Positions 29,046-39,614 of a stretch of DNA of 64,000 nt are shown one piece after another. Location of the stretch: contig NC_083393.1 in NCBI RefSeq assembly GCF_030864355.1, forward strand, positions 558,001 through 622,000, in the 5' to 3' direction. The position numbers and the translations under genes are program-made. Within the stretch, counting starts at the first letter, position 1. Every line of letters begins with the position of its first letter. The DNA is from Cutaneotrichosporon cavernicola. Lineage: Eukaryota > Basidiomycota > Tremellomycetes > Trichosporonales > Trichosporonaceae. The notes under the pieces are model-generated. The model did not search any database, was not told where the DNA came from, and worked only from the letters and a program-made list of their open reading frames with translations.

Positions 29046-30403
29046 TCAGCTACTCCCGTTAGCATCCGGGCCACCCTTGACGCCCGCCGCATAGATGTCC
29101 GTCAGGCGCATGTGGACGTAATCGCCCGCCGTCATAACCTCGTACTTGTTCGGTCGCTCTTCACTGACACACGTGGGGATCGGGTCCATGACGACGTCGT
29201 GGTCGCAGCCAAAGAAGAATGGGATCGAGTACCGGTCCCGTCCGACGGTGGGGAGTACGCGGTGGCGCGTCGACACGAAGATGTCATCTGCGGTTAGCCA
29301 AAGGAATATGCAGCGCAGCTCGCCGCTCACGACTCACTAGTCCACCGCGCAAGCTGGTCGCCAATGTTAACCACAAACGTATCCGGAATACACTTGGCAT
29401 CAAGCCACTCTCCATGCCGATTCGCGACCTGGAGCGCTGGCACTGTGCCATTATCGTCCTGCCTCAAAATCGTAAAGCACTCAAAATCCGTGTGCGCCCC
29501 AATACCGGGCATCTTCTCATCAGCACCAACCTCCCGTTCGGGATAGTAAAGCAGCCGCATAATAGCCGCGGGATGCTGGATCTTGTCGTCAAAGAACGAC
29601 TCGGGAAGGTCTAGGGCCAGTGCGATCAGCGGGAAAAGGCGTTGGCCCAGACCGAGGATGGACGAGTAGTACTGCAGAGTGGTTGATTTCTATATCAGCA
29701 GGAGAAAAAAGGGAGACTCGACTTACAAACTCGTCCGCTCCAGGCCACACCTGAGATTGGGGCCACGCGTTCGCCCCATGCTGCATCTTGCTGTCACCGC
29801 TGCCCTCTGTACCCATGCTTTCCGGTGCGAGGGAGGGGTCGAGGCCGAGGTTGAAGGCTTCGTGGTAGTCGCCCTTGTTGGTTGGGTCGTTGTTCTCCAT
29901 CAGGACGCCCATGTAGCCACGAAAGTTGTCCGACTTGGAGATGTCGATCTGCGTGAGCGGGGATCACGACGGCGAGGGTGCGCTAGTGCACCCGGCTGCT
30001 CAATGAAATCCAGATAGGGTAGGCAGCGAGCTCCCAACCGACTCACAGAGCGCTTAACCTCGTTCCCGCTCCCAAAGAACGCCTTGGACTGGTCGAACGC
30101 CGCATCCGCGACCGCTTTCGGCACGCCGTGGTTCTTGACTGTCATCAGTCTCCATTGAATTTTCGCTCACGATAAAAGAAGCCCTGGTTGAGACACGCGG
30201 CCCGGATCTCCATCGCCACGGCATGGCGCCGGGACGCGTCGGGATGCGCCGCGTCTGTCATGTCGCTGGGGTCAGCGAGGCGTGCAATAGAGGAGTGGGG
30301 CGTATCAGCGAGGCATGCAATAGAGGAGTGGGACGTACATGATAGGAATGGAGGTGAAATCATCAGCCTTGAGCTGGGCGCTGAGCGCCGAGAGGGCTGC
30401 CAT
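29046..30403 (-). CDS. 2-oxoglutarate/Fe(II) dioxygenase, isopenicillin-N-synthase-like
   Basis: Six exons (30403-30339, 30265-30171, 30138-30047, 29948-29727, 29689-29338, 29287-29046) give 355 aa. The DIOX_N part reads DDFTSIPIIDMTDAAH and QGFFYLKNHGVPK. RGYMGVLMENNDPTNKGDYH and GLGQRLFPLIALALDLPE follow. The double-stranded beta-helix carries the metal facial triad GAHTDFECFTIL (H-x-D) and STRHRVLP (distal H), and the 2OG-binding R-x-S in DRYSIPFF. Fungal members oxidise diverse small molecules; no substrate can be inferred and no biosynthetic neighbours are present. Intron 1 consists almost entirely of a 33-bp direct duplication. Confidence 0.88.
30272..30337. repeat. 33-bp tandem duplication filling an intron
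   Basis: Units 30272-30304 and 30305-30337 both begin TCAGCGAGGC and differ at two positions. They make up 66 of the 73 nt of intron 1 of the dioxygenase; without one copy the intron would be 40 nt, the usual size here. Confidence 0.85.
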
Positions 30404-30920: not shown

Positions 30921-33757
30921 CTACGCGTGCACCCACTGTCCGCCCAATCCCTCGCTCCAGGAATGGAGGTTAGCACTACCCGCGCTCTTGAGGGAGTGTC
31001 CAACACCCCCCGATCCCTGCGGGAGGACGTGGACGCACAGTCCCGGTCCGCCGAGTGTCGTGAGGTGCGGCTGGGCGCCCAGCCCCTCGAGTTCACGCGT
31101 GAGCCTCGCGAGAGACGCATCGTCAAACGCATCGGGAACAAGCGTGACTGCACACCCACCCCCTCCGGCGCCGGTGAGTTTGGTCGCCAGGCCGAACTTG
31201 GAGGTAGTGGAGACGACGGATTCCAGCGAGGGGTGCGAGACGCCGAGAGTTCGCAGGTGAGTGTGGTTCTCGCGCATGAGGGCGCCCAGGCGCTCGATAA
31301 GGAAAGCACGCTCAGTTGACGAGGTGAGGAGAGAGCTGGCCTCGTCAGAGATGGCCTGGATCCGGTCCAGGATTGGGTTGACGATTTCGGGCTTGGCCAG
31401 CTTCATCGCCCCAACACCTGCGACTAGGCTCTTGGTGTCTCGAGGGACGCCGGTGTCGGTCAGAAGGAGGCGGATGGAAGCGAAACCGCCCATCGGGTCC
31501 AGACCGCCCTGTTTGCCGTTCACAGCGCGGGTGAAGGCGACGGCGCCGCCGCGAACCGCGACAGCGTTGTCGATGCCCGATGGGTTGCCGTGGAGCACCT
31601 TCTCGGCGAGGAAGGCCCAGGCGTCGACGAGGTCGATCGCGGCCGGGTCAGGCGCGCAGTGTGCGGTCGCGTGGGCGTGGGCAAAGAGCAGCGAGCTGGC
31701 AAGGCAAGCGGAGAAGGCGGCCGAGGAACCGAGGCCAGCGCCAATCGGCAGGTTGGCCGAGACGGTCAGCGTCGCAGCGAGGCTGATGTCAGCTGTATAC
31801 AAAAACAACGAAGCTCACGCATTGTCCTCCGTAACGGTCATCGCCATGTAGATGTAGAGGAAGGCGACCGAGGCACTGAAGCCGGTTTTGGTCGGCTTGT
31901 CCTGAGACACGACGGCTTCGATCGCCTCAAGCAGCGTCTGGTCGAGCGCGGCGGGGGCGACGTTGCCCTCCCGAGCAGGGACGAGGGACCACGGTAGCGT
32001 GGCAATGTCCCACGCGTGGTCGGCCTCGAGGTCTGGCGCGGCGATCGCGACCTTGCCGTCGAAGCGGCCAGCCAGCACGCCGTAGCAGCGGAGGTTGAGC
32101 GACGTAGCGATGGCAGTCTGTTGTCAGGATTTTTGAGTGGTTGAGTTTTGTTGGTTGAGATTTGAGAGATTTGGGCATTGGCACACGTTGTCATGTTGCG
32201 TATATGTATTGTATCAGAATCACACTTCTTTCACTGCTTGTCACCCACCACACCATGCACAACTGCGTGCTCGCCGAACAAGATGACCTTGCCAGGCGCT
32301 GACACAACAATGTCGCTGTCAAGCGTCTTAACCTTGGCGGTGGCGGCCTCGCCGCCGAGTGTGAGTCCACGCGAGACGCCCTCGGCCAGATCTGAGTCGA
32401 TGGGGCGCCTGAAGAAGTGGGCACGCTCAATGCCCCATGCAGGAGCGTCAACTGCGTACAGAGCGTCGAGCTCGTCGAGGGAAAGGAGGGAGTCGTCGTT
32501 GCGGGGCACAATCGCGCCAGACGCAATGAATGCCGTCTCGAGGTCGTCGAGGAGGTCGCGTGGGTCCTCGATACCGACACACAGGCGGATGAGGTTCTCG
32601 GGGAGGCCGCGCTCAGCGCGGAGGGCGGGCGAAATGGACGCGTGCGACATGAGACACGGCATCGAGATGAGCGAGTTGACAGCGCCAAAGGACACGGAGA
32701 CGCCCCACAAGCGCGTGCCGGAGACGATGCGCTCTGAGAGCGCCTTGTCGCCCGTCACAAAGGAGAGAACAGCGCCAGCACCGGTCGCCTGCTTCCAGTG
32801 AATGTCGGCGCCCGGGTGGCTCTTGAGACCGGGGTAGTGGACGAGGAAGCCAAGCTCGTGGAGGTAGTTTGCGACAATCTGGGCGTTTGCCTGCTGCTTG
32901 TCCATGCGGAGGGCGAGCGTCTTGACGCCACGCATGAGGAGGAACGAGTCGAACGGAGCGAGACCAGAGCCCATCGCGTTGATGAGCCACGCGACCTCCT
33001 TGCTGTGCTCGGGGGTGCGCACAGCAATAATACCGGCCATGAGGTCATGGTGGCCCGAGAGGTACTTTGTGGCCGAGTCGTAGACAATGTCGGCGCCGAG
33101 CTCGAGCGGGCGCTGGAGGTACGGGCTCATCATGGTGTTGTCGACCACAATAATGGCATTGGGCGCGGCGGCATGCACGGCCTTGCTGACGGCGGCAATG
33201 TCGGCAACCTTGAGGAGCGGGTTGGTGGGCGACTCGAGGAGCACCATCTTGACCTTGTTCCCTGGCTCGAGGTGGGGCATCACGCCCTCGACCTTGGTCG
33301 TGTCAACGTGGCGGACGTCGACACCGCCGTGGCTCGAGAGGTACGTGAGGAGGCGGTTGGTACCGCCGTACAGGTCATCGCCAGCGAGCACCGTCTCACC
33401 GGGCTTAACGAGGCGGAGGATTACGTCCAGGCATGTCATGCCTGTCGAGAGCGCGAACGCCGAGGTGGCAGAGTACAGGCGAGCGAGGTGGGACTCGAGG
33501 CCGCCACGGGTTGGGTTGCCGCTACGGCTGTAGTCGTAGGGGCCCTCCATGCCCTTGAAGGTGGCTGTCTGGAAGATGGGCGTGGCGCTGGCGCCGTGCT
33601 GGTTCTGCGACGAGTCAGTCGCGACGACCTGGGTAGCGAAGTGCCACTTCTGGGCGCGCGCCTCAAAGTCATACTCCGAGTTGGAGTCGTAGACTGACGT
33701 CGCCATCGACGACTCGCCAGGCGACGAGGGCACCGGCGTCGTGTCTGCGACAGACAT
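30921..33757 (-). CDS. STR3::ERG12: Cystathionine beta-lyase / mevalonate kinase fusion protein
   Basis: Exons 33757-32249, 32117-31819 and 31782-30921 give 889 aa in one frame. Residues ~30-415 are a PLP-dependent Cys/Met-metabolism lyase: ATPIFQTATFKG, YDYSRSGNPTRGGLE, SPTNPLLKVADI and SATKYLSGHHDLMAG (K binds PLP), closing with LIRLCVGIEDPRDLLDDLE; cystathionine beta-lyase (STR3-type) fits best. A linker of about 70 residues follows without any Met. From ~485 the protein is a GHMP kinase: SAPGKVILFGEHAVVHGV, TLTVSANLPIGAGLGSSAA (ATP loop), NPSGIDNAVAVRGG and KLTGAGGGGCAV, i.e. mevalonate kinase. The lyase makes homocysteine; the kinase makes phosphomevalonate for sterols. There is no stop between them and no usable ATG before the kinase within exon 1. 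Both domains look complete. The first donor could be GTGGTG or GTGGGT (both phase 0). Confidence 0.85.
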
Positions 33758-35034
33758 GGTGGGGGAGGAGGGGGGGTGGGGAAGGGCGAGAAGAAGCGGG
33801 GGGGGGGGAGAGAGATGGTGTAATGCAGGTGGTGGTATGCAGGCGAGGTTTTCGAGGATGTCGCAGCCTGCGATGTAGGTGCAGGTGTCGTCTAGTTTCT
33901 AACAAAAGTTGAGATCTTTAAGAGCACAGAAGTGGATCTGAATGAATGAGATGGTCTCAACTGGATTGAGTCGGTTGGCTAAGAATGTATATAGATGTAT
34001 CCCACTTTGGAGTGTTGGTGACGACAACCAGTGGCGTGCTCGTCCAACTTTCTAGGGTTTAGTTAGGAGTAATGACCGACCACGCGGACAACGCGGCCAG
34101 GCGGCAATCGAATCGCGAATCAGACCAGTCATAGCCAAAATGCCACCAGCAAGCGGCACGGAACTATATTGCACCAGCACGTCATATTGGAGTGGGAGTG
34201 GGGCAGAGGGGCAGATGTTTTTGGTCAACTGTACCTGTATGGGACCAACGCGACGCGTCAGGAGCATGTGGTGATCCTGGGAGGGTAGAGGGTAGCAAGG
34301 GGTTCATGGTCCCGGAGCGCTCAAAATGGCTGGCCTCTGCTGGATCTTTGGATCTTTGGATTGGGTTGATTGGACTGTACTCAGGTCCGTCACAGAGCCC
34401 TATCCAGGTGGCCAGGTGGATGACTGGATGCCTCGAGGTAGCAGTGACCGATGGATGGGATGTCGCGACGCGTCGCGTCCTGCTCGCGTTCTCGCGTTCT
34501 CGCGTCTTCCTTGCCCTCATCACAATGCACAATAGCACATCGCTCATCTTACATCGCGTTCATCGCATCTCTTCCTTCCTCCTCATCACTATCCATCCAT
34601 CATCACACTCACTCACTCATCTCATTCCATCTGTTGGGTGGGGGGTGTCCTGTGCGACTTCCACACAGACAATCGTTCAGCAGCACCTCCCTTCTCATCT
34701 CACTCTGCTCTCATCACGTCTTCCGTCTCCATAACCTTCCTTCTGGACCACAGTTTGGCTATATCATTCTTCCTTCAGCACCTTTCCTCGACACAAACGC
34801 GCCACCTCATGCTCCTACAACCATACAAACCACGCCACGCTTCCCCTGATTACTCGCTCTCCCAGACTTCGCGTTCCCTCCCCCTCGTCATCCCCCCAAT
34901 CACTGCTAACCATCGCATGGACGGGAACTACATAACGCGGGTCGTATACAAGATGGATATCAACCATGCACACAAACAGGTAGGAAGATAGGGACAACAG
35001 CAGGAAACAGATCTGCACACACCGCACTCCCCAC
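33758..35034. other. Intergenic region upstream of the fusion gene
   Basis: About 1.3 kb. The first 100 bp upstream of the ATG are a C-rich leader on the gene strand (G runs at 33763-33810 on the plus strand). The remainder has ATC/TCA-rich simple sequence near 34560-34640 and no convincing gene. Confidence 0.5.
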
Positions 35035-37434
35035 TCAGTTGGGCATCGAGTCATCAGGCGCACTGCCCTTGACGTCGTCACTGAGAGGGAAGCTAAAACC
35101 CAGACCACTGCGTGAAGCCGAGCGCAGATGACTCGACTTGCTCGACGTGCGTCTGTGTCCGCCAAACGGAGACGGCGAGAGCTGCGACGGGCGACCGAGG
35201 CCCAAGCTTCTCATGCCAGCGCCAGGCGTCTCCGGCAGCTGGCGCCGGTCGGCCGTCAGGCCCTGCAAGAATTCGTGTCTGCTCGTCATGCCTTCCGAAA
35301 AAGCGGGAGGCACCCCAGACACATTTCTGGCATGGCCCATCGGCGTGTCCCCCACGAGCATGTTGGCGTTGCGAGAGCGGCCAACTAATGGGGTGATTGC
35401 AAAGAGGCTACCGGAAAACTGGCCAGCGATGCGAGGGTCCGTGTCGAGGTGACGCGACGGCGTCGAGTTGACATCAAACACAGGGTCGTCGGGACGGGGG
35501 GTCGAAAATGTGCCAAAGCCACCCTGCGGCATGGGTGTCGACGGGTTCTCACCAGTGACACCCCATTCGTTACCATACGATAGCACTCGTGCCCGTTCGT
35601 GTCTCCGGCTGGGTGTCCGTGGTGTGCGGGTGGCCATTCCGGAATGGGCCGCCGCACGAGCCGCTTCCGGTGCAAACATTGGCGATGGCGCGAGCGCCAG
35701 AGCCTGGTTGCCGCGGAATGCCGACATGGACCGGTCGACTGTGCTGAACTGGGACGGCGTGCGCTGAGAGGGCGTCGACAATGTGGCGCGCCGAGCCTGG
35801 GCCATGCAACGTTCACAGGCCCAGTTGCTGTCGAGAGCCTCGTCGCGGCCCACGCAAGCGACATGATGCCAGCTCTTGCAGTTGCTGCACGAGACCATCT
35901 GGTTCGACGGCGCCGTGTTCTTGCACACGCAGCTCACGATGCCTGTGGGCACCATCTGCGGCCCGGCTAACTGCTGCGGCCGGCGGGCCTTGTGCATTGC
36001 GTACCAGAGGGCAGCACGGGCATCAGTGGGGTCCTGTGATGGCGGCAACTGCTCGGCTGACGGTCGCGACTGGTGTCTCTTGGTTGGGATCTGCAATCTG
36101 ACCGCGCCATCGTGATCGTCGTCGTCGTCGCTCGAAGTCTCGAGGTAACGCTGCAGCATGGCCAGGCGCTCGCGGTCCTGACGCTGCTTCTTGGTACGTC
36201 TTCCGCTGGTCTGGTTCCATGGTGCCTCGTCATCGGGCCAGTCTGGGCGAACTGGCTGGTGGGCAGAGTCTGCGTTCTGCTCCTCGGTTGCGCCACCAGT
36301 CGCCACCTTGTCCAGGCCCATGAAGGCAATCGCAATGTCCTTGCGGAGTGCGACCCGGACGGGACCGCCGTGACCCATATCGAGGCGTGTAGAGTACATG
36401 GGCTCTGCGTTGCGAGAGGTCGTCTTGAATAACGAAAGACGGCGCTTGATCTTGTCGACTTTTGTGCGAGGGGTGTCATCCTCGGCGAGCTCACGACTAG
36501 GCGCTGGAGGAGTCTTGGGGACCTGACCCATGTACGAGGCGTCAGAGTGGAGGACGTCCCCACTGCCCACCGTAGCAACACCCGATGAATTGACGCTCAA
36601 GACAGTGGCCTGCTTGGTACGCGGAGGGCCATGCTCACGGTTGGCCTCGACGCTCTCCATCCCTGTTGATGTCCGCACCAGTCCCAATTTCCTCCCCTCC
36701 GACTCAGTCGCAGTGACATAGACGCCCGAACGCTTCTTCTCGGAAAACGGATGCTGCGCTGACTGATCCACGGGAGAGTGGTGAGACATTTGTGCAGGCG
36801 TCGACACATGGTCGCCGGTGGACGGAGGGGTCGGTAAATGGGACTTGCCCGTCACCAGCCCTTGAATGGTTGACGGCAGAGGCTGCTGCATGTTGTTCCG
36901 TGGTGTGCGCAGCTCCTCGGCCTGCGACGACGAGTTGCTGCGCTTGCGCTTGTGCGAGCCGGTGGAGTCGAGTGAGCGCTGGGCTGCATGTCCGCTTGTC
37001 GATGCAGAGTCGGGAGGTGGACCACTCGACGGTCCGGCGGAGATTTCTGCGTGGCTGGGTCTTCGAGAAGGTCCAGGGGCCATCTGAGAGGGAGGATAGG
37101 GAGCAAACTGTGTTGGCGGTGGCTGGTAAAAGGTACCACTGGGGTCGTTCATGTAGACTGGCTGAAACTGTTGTAGTTGTTGGCCAGGCTGCATGGTGGG
37201 GACAAAGGTGGGCTGAGGGGGAATGGGTCCAAGGGCAATGGAGGTATTGATGTTGGCAGGACGCTTCATTCTGATGTCAGCTGTGTGCGTTTTTAGTACC
37301 ACCACCCACTTGTCCTTTTGAGATGACCGCTTGGCGGTGATGGCGTAGTGCTCGGTGATGAGCTCCTGCTTGAGCACAGGGGCCGATGGTAGTGGAGAAT
37401 GCGTTGACGACTCAAAGACGAGACCGCAGTTCAT
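35035..37434 (-). CDS. PHD-finger protein, ~800 aa
   Basis: A frame from Met 37434 (MNCGLVFESSTHS) to 35035 encodes about 799 aa; the frame is open further upstream but that part is low-complexity. Most of the protein is disordered, with an NLS-like SHKRKRSNSSS near residue 170 and an acidic SSDDDDDHD run near 470. Around residue 530 is a C4HC3 PHD finger: SCVCKNTAPSNQMVSCSNCK, then WHHVACVG and WACERC. PHD fingers read histone H3 tails, so a chromatin-associated role is likely. A possible 39-nt intron (GTGGGT to CTGACATCAG) after SSQKDK would remove 13 residues in frame. I cannot match it to a named complex subunit. Confidence 0.75.
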   Translation of the reverse strand: MNCGLVFESSTHSPLPSAPVLKQELITEHYAITAKRSSQKDKWVVVLKTHTADIRMKRPANINTSIALGPIPPQPTFVPTMQPGQQLQQFQPVYMNDPSGTFYQPPPTQFAPYPPSQMAPGPSRRPSHAEISAGPSSGPPPDSASTSGHAAQRSLDSTGSHKRKRSNSSSQAEELRTPRNNMQQPLPSTIQGLVTGKSHLPTPPSTGDHVSTPAQMSHHSPVDQSAQHPFSEKKRSGVYVTATESEGRKLGLVRTSTGMESVEANREHGPPRTKQATVLSVNSSGVATVGSGDVLHSDASYMGQVPKTPPAPSRELAEDDTPRTKVDKIKRRLSLFKTTSRNAEPMYSTRLDMGHGGPVRVALRKDIAIAFMGLDKVATGGATEEQNADSAHQPVRPDWPDDEAPWNQTSGRRTKKQRQDRERLAMLQRYLETSSDDDDDHDGAVRLQIPTKRHQSRPSAEQLPPSQDPTDARAALWYAMHKARRPQQLAGPQMVPTGIVSCVCKNTAPSNQMVSCSNCKSWHHVACVGRDEALDSNWACERCMAQARRATLSTPSQRTPSQFSTVDRSMSAFRGNQALALAPSPMFAPEAARAAAHSGMATRTPRTPSRRHERARVLSYGNEWGVTGENPSTPMPQGGFGTFSTPRPDDPVFDVNSTPSRHLDTDPRIAGQFSGSLFAITPLVGRSRNANMLVGDTPMGHARNVSGVPPAFSEGMTSRHEFLQGLTADRRQLPETPGAGMRSLGLGRPSQLSPSPFGGHRRTSSKSSHLRSASRSGLGFSFPLSDDVKGSAPDDSMPN

Positions 37435-39614
37435 CGTTGCGCTCAAGGAGGGAGAGTGGGCTGTGTGTAAGAGGAGTGTCAACGGTGTGGGAGTGAGAGC
37501 GAGTGGATGTGTGAGTGGGAGGGGTGGTGTTTGGAGAGTGGGTGCAGAACAGTGGCAGGCGACGAGTGCGAAGTCGAAGCCGGCGGTGCGAGGAGGATGG
37601 GCAAAACAATGAGAATTGTTCGTTTTGGTCGAACGAACGATGTCTCCCTTCCCCGTTCCCCGTCCCCCGCTGCCCGCCACCATAGGTCAGGCCGACAGTC
37701 ATATGGCCAGACAAGGGTACGGGCAAAGGAACAGATAGGGGTCGCAGGGTGGAAGGGTGGAGAGGGTGGAAGAAGAGGAGGGGTTGGGGGGTTGAGCGTT
37801 GGCCATGTAGGCCTAGAAGATGCGCTGGAGCCTCCAGACGTTGAGACAACTCACGATGGTGATGGTGCGGTGGGAACAGCGGGGGATGTCGAGACTAGTC
37901 CACCAGTGCCCCAAGTCGACAAGTTGTCTGAGCGATAGGGAGGGTTGTAGGGTGCGACGATACAGTCACAGTCACCGCTGGCGTTACTGTCACAGACAGT
38001 TGGTAATGTAGGGCGGGCAGGCGGGTGTACGGGTGAAGGGGAAGCGACGTGAGATCCACAGTCAGGTCTTTGCGCCGGCGCAAGGTAGTGGTAGTTGTGG
38101 TCAGGTCGAGCACACAGTGCAGAAGGGGTTTCGGGCAAGGGAGCAAGGTGGGGCGACCTGCGCGGATTGAAAGTAAAAGCCTGGTACACGGACCTGTAGC
38201 TGTGAGGTTTGAAGGAGATGTAAAGTGGGGAAATCAATGTCGATGACGGTTGACTAGCTTTACCAATGGATAAAGACGAATCCGAGGGGCAAAGTAGGGA
38301 TGAAGGGAAGGTTGAAGGTTGAAGACTGTGGGATGGGGCAAATGGTTGATGCTTCGTGGGCCGTTGGGTACTGTATCCAGTTTAGGGACGCCAAACCACC
38401 AAACGACGCCACAAAAGTCCAAAGGTTGACCTTGTCAAGACTCAAGACTGGCTGTTGTATGATGTGGATGGGGAAAGTGGAGTGACTAGAATAAGATGAC
38501 AACAAGACAACAAGGCAACAAGGCTACAAGGCAACAACATGTGATGGCACAGAGGTAGAACGGGGTACGGGAGGGGGGAGTGAATGACTGGATGACTCAA
38601 CCGAGGCAAGCAAGTCTGAAGCTATCAGAGCCCAGACTAATTGGTGGTGGGAAAACGGACACTTGTTACACTCAGGGATACCAATACATCTCAGGGTCAA
38701 CCCCTGTCCTCCCTGAAGTAGAACCTGAGGCAACACTTTAGCTCGTCACTATGAATTTATTCTCCCTTAGTCGATCTACTTTTGACTTGATGGTAAAATA
38801 AAATGAGATGGAGTGGCGCAGAGTATTATAGGGGTGGTGTGGCTGGCAACAGTTGTGCTCAAACCTTGCCTGTAATGTGTTTGGATTGGATAAACGGCGA
38901 CGGCGACGGCGGCGGCGACGGCGATCAGTTGCTGCTATTCGCCGCCTCTGACACCAGGGGGTCCAGCGTCATCACATCAGTCATGTAATGTTGTTGCTGC
39001 GGATGGTTGCTGTTTGTCAATCCTCACTGCTAGTGGCATCCAGTAGCGACACACCGACACGGAAGCGGCCTGGCGTACTGGCGTTGGCGCACTATGCAGA
39101 TATGTTACCAGACTAGTGGAGTAGGGCAATTAGTTGCAGTAGTAGGCCACCCTGGCTCCGCTCCACATCTGCATCTGCAACATGCCGCCAGAACGCAAGA
39201 ACTGCACAGGAGATCAGTAGACACATTCATGCTCGATTGGACGCGTCCTCTACATCGTAGACTCTGTGACAGTCGTTACCCAGTATGCGTCACGCATCAA
39301 TACTGAGAGTGACATTCGGGCATGGTATGGCCCATGTTGCTTCCGCAGGCTGCAAGCAGGGACGCGTGGCATGTCGGTCGCGATTACGGCACCACAGGAT
39401 CTCTAGCGCCGCGGAGCGTCGTCAACACGCCACAGTGGGCACGACATTGTTGGTTCCCACCCGCTTACAGCCCTCGGGCTCGGGTGCTCTGGGCTCGGGT
39501 GCTGGGCGCCCTGGAGTTGGCATTTGATAAACTCTATATGGGCAACTCGATTCTAGAGTTCATGTAAGACGCGCAAATAACAGACAACATGCATCATCCC
39601 CTCCTCACGCCGCG
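37435..39614. other. Long intergenic region between PHD gene and ARP5
   Basis: About 2.2 kb holds no convincing frame. Composition is purine-rich on the plus strand near 37740-37790, with CGACGGCGGCGGCGACGGCG at about 38898-38920. It may hold untranslated exons of the PHD gene. No RNA gene was recognised. Confidence 0.5.

Follow-up and report, generated by a model that had tools for sequence, protein, structure and literature searches.

The closest described systems are fusions of cystathionine beta-lyase with mevalonate kinase in other basidiomycetes. In the available text of their report, Liu et al. (2012; PMC3342255) named the fusion metC-MVK and recorded it in 12 basidiomycetes, with Laccaria bicolor excepted; the proteins averaged about 886 residues, and the fusion was the only K00869 homolog and the only gene with K01760 as its best hit. 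The origin was placed by those authors in the ancestor of Basidiomycota, and a study of function was said to be under way. According to the same text, seven species carry a kinase insertion of 16 residues (out of 12 species in the text and out of 13 in a legend), and the tables include Malassezia globosa, a ustilaginomycete. A second, independent report from 2012 (PMC3468542), in the sections available, described basidiomycete STR3 with a C-terminal mevalonate kinase extension, Postia placenta excepted; a stand-alone kinase was not found in basidiomycetes, and ascomycetes had two separate, apparently unclustered genes. Further examples, again from partial texts, are a unigene from mycelia of Pleurocybella porrigens (PMC3720577, 2013) and a 918-residue fusion in Lignosus rhinocerotis, the only gene there that matched the kinase (PMC4129116, 2014). 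The available parts of PMC3468542, PMC3342255, and PMC3720577 describe the role of the fusion as still to be determined, and no experimental test of it was found in the openly licensed literature searched.

The gene described here lies in a window of 64,000 nucleotides (the whole stretch of DNA that was analyzed) from Cutaneotrichosporon cavernicola, a basidiomycete yeast of the Trichosporonales (Basidiomycota). The original prediction, made from this sequence, knew of no described fusion of the kind, which the four reports cited above contradict: the fusion is already known, and the C. cavernicola gene is a typical representative of this basidiomycete family, correctly rediscovered. As far as the available texts allow comparison, metC-MVK resembles it in its N-terminal K01760 lyase, C-terminal K00869 kinase, and length; STR3 with the fused kinase has the same architecture, with no difference of substance, although the sections available make no mention of C. 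cavernicola; and the L. rhinocerotis and P. porrigens proteins share its two domains and their order, differing only in species. The additions made here are modest: the listed relatives include Pucciniomycotina (three classes) as well as Agaricomycotina, the active-site positions that were checked are invariant, and no other C. cavernicola gene over the cutoffs replaces either half.

Results

One frame encodes both enzymes. The gene is on the minus strand of the window and has the following features.

33757-30921, minus strand: whole gene, three exons
32249..33757, minus strand: exon 1, encoding the whole cystathionine beta-lyase domain, the linker, and 22 residues at the start of the kinase (482-503, through SAPGKVILFGEHAVVHGV)
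32528..33634, minus strand: cystathionine beta-lyase domain, residues 42-410 (Pfam PF01053) or 41-413 (TIGR01329)
33067-33065, minus strand: K231, taken to be the PLP lysine, within the cystathionine beta-lyase domain
32315..32518, minus strand: interdomain linker, residues 414-481
30921..32314, minus strand: mevalonate kinase domain, residues 482-889 plus the stop, split by introns 1 and 2 (TIGR00549, residues 487-817)
32118..32248, minus strand: intron 1, 131 nt, GTGGGT..ACAG (GT..AG)
31819..32117, minus strand: exon 2, mevalonate kinase
31783..31818, minus strand: intron 2, 36 nt, GTGAGC..TCAG (GT..AG)
30921..31782, minus strand: exon 3, mevalonate kinase with the GLGSSA and GAGGGG motifs, and the stop

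The spliced product of the three exons has 889 residues and a computed mass of 93.1 kDa. A stop-to-stop frame of 555 codons (32231-33898) extends from upstream of the lyase to SAPGKVILFGEHAVVHGV with zero stops, so that exon 1 does pass uninterrupted from the lyase into the kinase, as had been proposed. In the spliced protein, no Met follows M370 until M594; the linker is thus Met-free, and no start codon for the kinase alone is evident in frame over that interval, which agrees with the earlier reading of the junction. That reading had also mentioned one ATG in another frame that stops after a few codons. Two ATGs were found within 32600-32249, both in other frames, and their peptides are short (3 residues from the ATG at 32438 and, read unspliced, 21 residues from the ATG at 32256). 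The spliced protein was 100% identical over 889 residues to the deposited C. cavernicola protein CcaverHIS019_0102200. The splice sites had been fixed before the deposited record was seen, with exon 1 taken from the original prediction, and the gene model is supported because these previously set sites match the deposited protein, which may itself be a prediction. The spliced frame, the domain matches, and this identity together bear out the predicted coordinates and the placing of two domains in one frame.

Each half matched its own enzyme family. The N-terminal half matched Pfam PF01053 (Cys_Met_Meta_PP) at residues 42-410 with an E value of 9.2e-124 and scored 534.7 bits against NCBIfam TIGR01329 (cystathionine beta-lyase; curated cutoff, 487.5). 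Its best match of solved structure, over query residues 40-410, was cystathionine beta-lyase 1ibj, a separate protein from Arabidopsis, and the alignment spanned the whole domain, including the active-site motifs. The lyase residues K231, Y76, R78, D206, and R391 were invariant in all 175 fusions listed (see below); K231 corresponds to the PLP lysine, and the Tyr and Arg of the PLP-phosphate site are also present. By its TIGR01329 score and its PLP residues, the N-terminal half is a eukaryotic cystathionine beta-lyase, and catalysis by it is predicted.

The C-terminal half contained Pfam GHMP kinase N (597-681) and GHMP kinase C (765-823) domains and scored 212.9 bits against NCBIfam TIGR00549 (mevalonate kinase; curated cutoff, 163.05). 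All three GHMP motifs were present, and the kinase continued over both introns, as predicted. The best solved-structure match, over query residues 482-855, was mevalonate kinase 1kvk, likewise a separate protein aligned over the whole domain with its active-site motifs, and presumably the rat enzyme. Through this alignment, K490, S623, E663, and D674, invariant in 175 of the 175 fusions listed, were equated with rat K13, S146, E193, and D204. The TIGR00549 score, motifs, and residues identify this half as a mevalonate kinase, and phosphorylation of mevalonate is its predicted activity. Since the PF01053 E value is so low and both the TIGR01329 and TIGR00549 scores exceed their cutoffs, chance matches to the two families are excluded.

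The fusion recurs throughout the listed relatives. A full-length search scored 7,994 candidates, 1,013 of them at E ≤ 0.001, and the best 120 of the 1,013, the C. cavernicola protein included, were taken. All of these best 120 covered at least 91% of the query, and they came from Tremellomycetes, Dacrymycetes, Agaricomycetes, and, within Pucciniomycotina, Microbotryomycetes. A second search with a Microbotryum protein as the query (best 120 of 692) added Mixia and Atractiella. Five species were looked up for their class, and the remaining assignments follow the species names. By blastp, both domains were present, lyase first, in all 120 matches listed from each search, or 175 of 175 distinct proteins, which span Agaricomycotina and Pucciniomycotina (three classes). 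The same two-domain architecture, which had been suggested as something to look for in related genomes, was thus found in every listed protein, the opposite of relatives that always have two separate genes. Eight lyase and 10 kinase positions were invariant in all 175; these 18 were picked when the columns that do not vary in a subset of 41 sequences were already known and are not an independent test. No Ustilaginomycotina were recognized among the matches listed (best 120 of 1,013 and best 120 of 692), and the absence of ustilaginomycete or nonbasidiomycete fusions from lists of this kind is uninformative. A 909-residue fusion (P0273) was named from Postia placenta MAD-698-R-SB12.

A search with the kinase alone used length limits that leave out full fusions, and the best 120 of 7,221 matches were taken. 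Fourteen of these 120 also matched the lyase by blastp. Among the matches listed, all four that were recognized by name as basidiomycete carry a lyase domain. The nearest named stand-alone kinases were from Mortierellomycota, with 43 to 44% identity (best 120 of 7,221). The ten best matches (P0121-P0130) are missing the 22 kinase residues encoded by exon 1 in C. cavernicola, if not more, and look like single exons, while four others (P0133, P0136, P0143, and P0151) start in what by eye is an apparent lyase C terminus. Some basidiomycete may possibly have a stand-alone kinase, and the P. placenta exception in PMC3468542 may be a gene-model problem.

One database protein (P0036) was named “cystathionine beta-lyase/mevalonate kinase.” Because many fusions are named as cystathionine beta-lyase only, mevalonate kinase can look missing from a genome, which makes the naming of the fusion a practical annotation problem. 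In the available text of PMC7396576, mevalonate kinase is the single enzyme of the pathway for which KEGG gave no prediction in Ustilago maydis, and a fusion in that species could account for the gap.

No other gene over the cutoffs replaces either half. The 20.2-Mb assembly was searched in six frames, exon by exon, a procedure that a very divergent second enzyme could escape. With the fusion protein, TIGR00549, and PF00288, no second mevalonate kinase over the cutoff was found in the genome. One of seven TIGR00549 matches exceeded the cutoff, and this was the fusion gene (172.8 bits with exon 3 alone); the other six comprised one short piece of the fusion gene itself, three frames of other enzymes, and two segments from one galactokinase frame. 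As candidates for a second mevalonate kinase, the homoserine kinase and diphosphomevalonate decarboxylase frames were rejected by scores over the cutoffs of their own families, the partial phosphomevalonate kinase frame by having phosphomevalonate kinase as its best family (below the cutoff), and the galactokinase frame by Pfam, which identifies it as galactokinase. One of eight TIGR01329 matches in the genome exceeded that cutoff, again the fusion gene (537.6 bits; next best, 269.5), and no second cystathionine beta-lyase did so. Frames L001, L003, L004, L005, and L006 failed TIGR01329 as second lyases, some of them being partial exons with scores lowered accordingly. L003 passes an O-acetylhomoserine sulfhydrylase model; L008 is a piece beside it, and the other lyase-like matches were L007 and weak ones at C1:1429192 and C5:360050. 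The search for a separate kinase or lyase that the original prediction had called for thus returned neither over its cutoff, and, should the fusion gene make no active enzyme, the cell would apparently have no other of either kind.

As a separate observation, one 763-codon frame of the C. cavernicola genome (L012; C2, about 2234561-2235775, minus strand), outside the window, joins the C-terminal domain of a galactose-1-phosphate uridylyltransferase (PF02744, plus the last part of PF01087) to a galactokinase (PF10509, PF00288, and PF08544). This frame seems to be another fusion of two enzymes in the genome, here with both belonging to one pathway.

The linker is variable in sequence and length. 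The commonest residue had a mean frequency per column of 0.22 in the linker, versus 0.83 in the lyase and 0.70 in the kinase (175 fusions listed). Between G414 and S486, the C. cavernicola linker has 71 residues, against a median of 47 and a range of 37 to 108 for the fusions listed. An AlphaFold2 model built from 41 sequences had a mean pLDDT of 79.5 and a pTM of 0.52 and gave no confident placement of the lyase domain relative to the kinase domain. Linker residues 421-450 were modeled with confidence, with helices at 427-436 and 438-446, and the stretch at 455-473, where the pLDDT was under 50, is probably flexible, as a tether would be. The pLDDT was also under 50 at residues 1-81, though 42-81 belong to the lyase domain, and in this model the low values there seem to reflect a limit of the monomer prediction and its alignment rather than disorder.

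Discussion

The reading preferred here, at a probability of about 0.9, is that the gene represents, in C. cavernicola, the cystathionine beta-lyase/mevalonate kinase fusion of basidiomycetes (metC-MVK, STR3-MVK) and encodes a bifunctional enzyme. One transcript would give one 93-kDa polypeptide, whose N-terminal PLP enzyme would convert cystathionine to homocysteine and whose C-terminal GHMP kinase would phosphorylate mevalonate, with the tether fixing the stoichiometry and joint expression of the two. Both halves are probably active, since the active-site positions that were checked do not vary and no other copies over the cutoffs were found. Less firmly, the halves may act independently on a tether of fixed stoichiometry, because no metabolite is common to their pathways and conservation of the linker is low; for want of a shared metabolite, substrate channeling is not expected. 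From its distribution, the fusion would have arisen in an early basidiomycete ancestor, and it would have persisted for lack of a separate copy of either enzyme.

A different account of its persistence is that the fusion was selected to coordinate sulfur amino acid supply with sterol and isoprenoid synthesis, for example through allostery or shared regulation. In favor of coordination, none of the listed relatives, which belong to two subphyla, lacks the fusion, and the two active sites are conserved in them. C-24 sterol methylation requires S-adenosylmethionine, and the link to this step that the original prediction raised is possible but speculative, the search having turned up evidence neither for it nor against it. 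The linker, however, is little conserved, and a fusion locked in without spare copies would persist regardless, so that conservation alone is no argument for coupling; we consider selected coordination doubtful. Its strongest form, an obligate device in place since the early basidiomycete ancestor that sets sulfur amino acid status and isoprenoid entry jointly through allostery or a mixed oligomer, is a little more doubtful again. Mevalonate kinases are dimers. Cystathionine beta-lyases are homotetramers (PMC11506715, in the text available), and oligomers that combine lyase tetramers with kinase dimers are possible. A functional tether would give mushrooms and basidiomycete yeasts a regulatory point in common; a tether without function would make the gene a clear case of a fusion that was locked in once the separate genes were lost.

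The original prediction left the choice between a bifunctional protein and a precursor separated later. The former is the likeliest reading; the latter, in which the linker is cut after translation and two free enzymes do the work, is improbable. A linker of such variable length and poor conservation, with its low-confidence stretch at 455-473, would accommodate cleavage, but columns averaging 0.22 leave little room for a common cleavage motif. We know of no report that the fusion is cleaved. In the available part of a proteomic source, which also weighs against cleavage, the mevalonate kinase of Xanthophyllomyces was two-dimensional gel spot 4609, identified by four kinase-domain peptides on gels covering 10 to 100 kDa, with the size of the spot unstated.

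Production of one half alone has just as slender a chance, whether of the kinase from an internal promoter or translation start or of the lyase by retention of intron 1. Retention would bring in a TGA stop at 32233-32231 and yield a 508-residue lyase-only protein, a possible isoform. For the kinase, eight relatives (six Rhodotorula, Gloeophyllum trabeum, and one other; P0087, P0250, P0251, P0253, and P0257-P0260) carry Met two positions ahead of SAPGK, where translation of a free kinase could begin, although this is probably a chance substitution. Against a separate kinase start, C. cavernicola has no in-frame Met between residues 370 and 594, and a Met up to 60 residues upstream of SAPGK was found in 49 of 168 fusions, at distances from 2 to 60 (the SAPGK pattern matched 168 of the 175 listed, and the other 7 were left out).

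That two genes were taken as one through a gene-model or assembly artifact has a negligible chance: no evidence favoring it was found in this analysis, the architecture is shared by all 175 listed proteins, of which many belong to species that were sequenced separately, the P. porrigens fusion is reported as a unigene in the available text of PMC3720577, and the assembly error at the junction that had been named as a refutation is very unlikely given this recurrence and the 100% identity to the deposited protein.

Neighboring genes

Both neighbors in the window are on the minus strand. Upstream, an 883-codon stop-to-stop frame (35035-37686) contains one PHD finger (PF00628). Downstream, at about 29327-30402, an extent judged by eye, is an apparently multiexon gene that encodes a 2OG-Fe(II) oxygenase domain (PF03171, frame 29327-29689).
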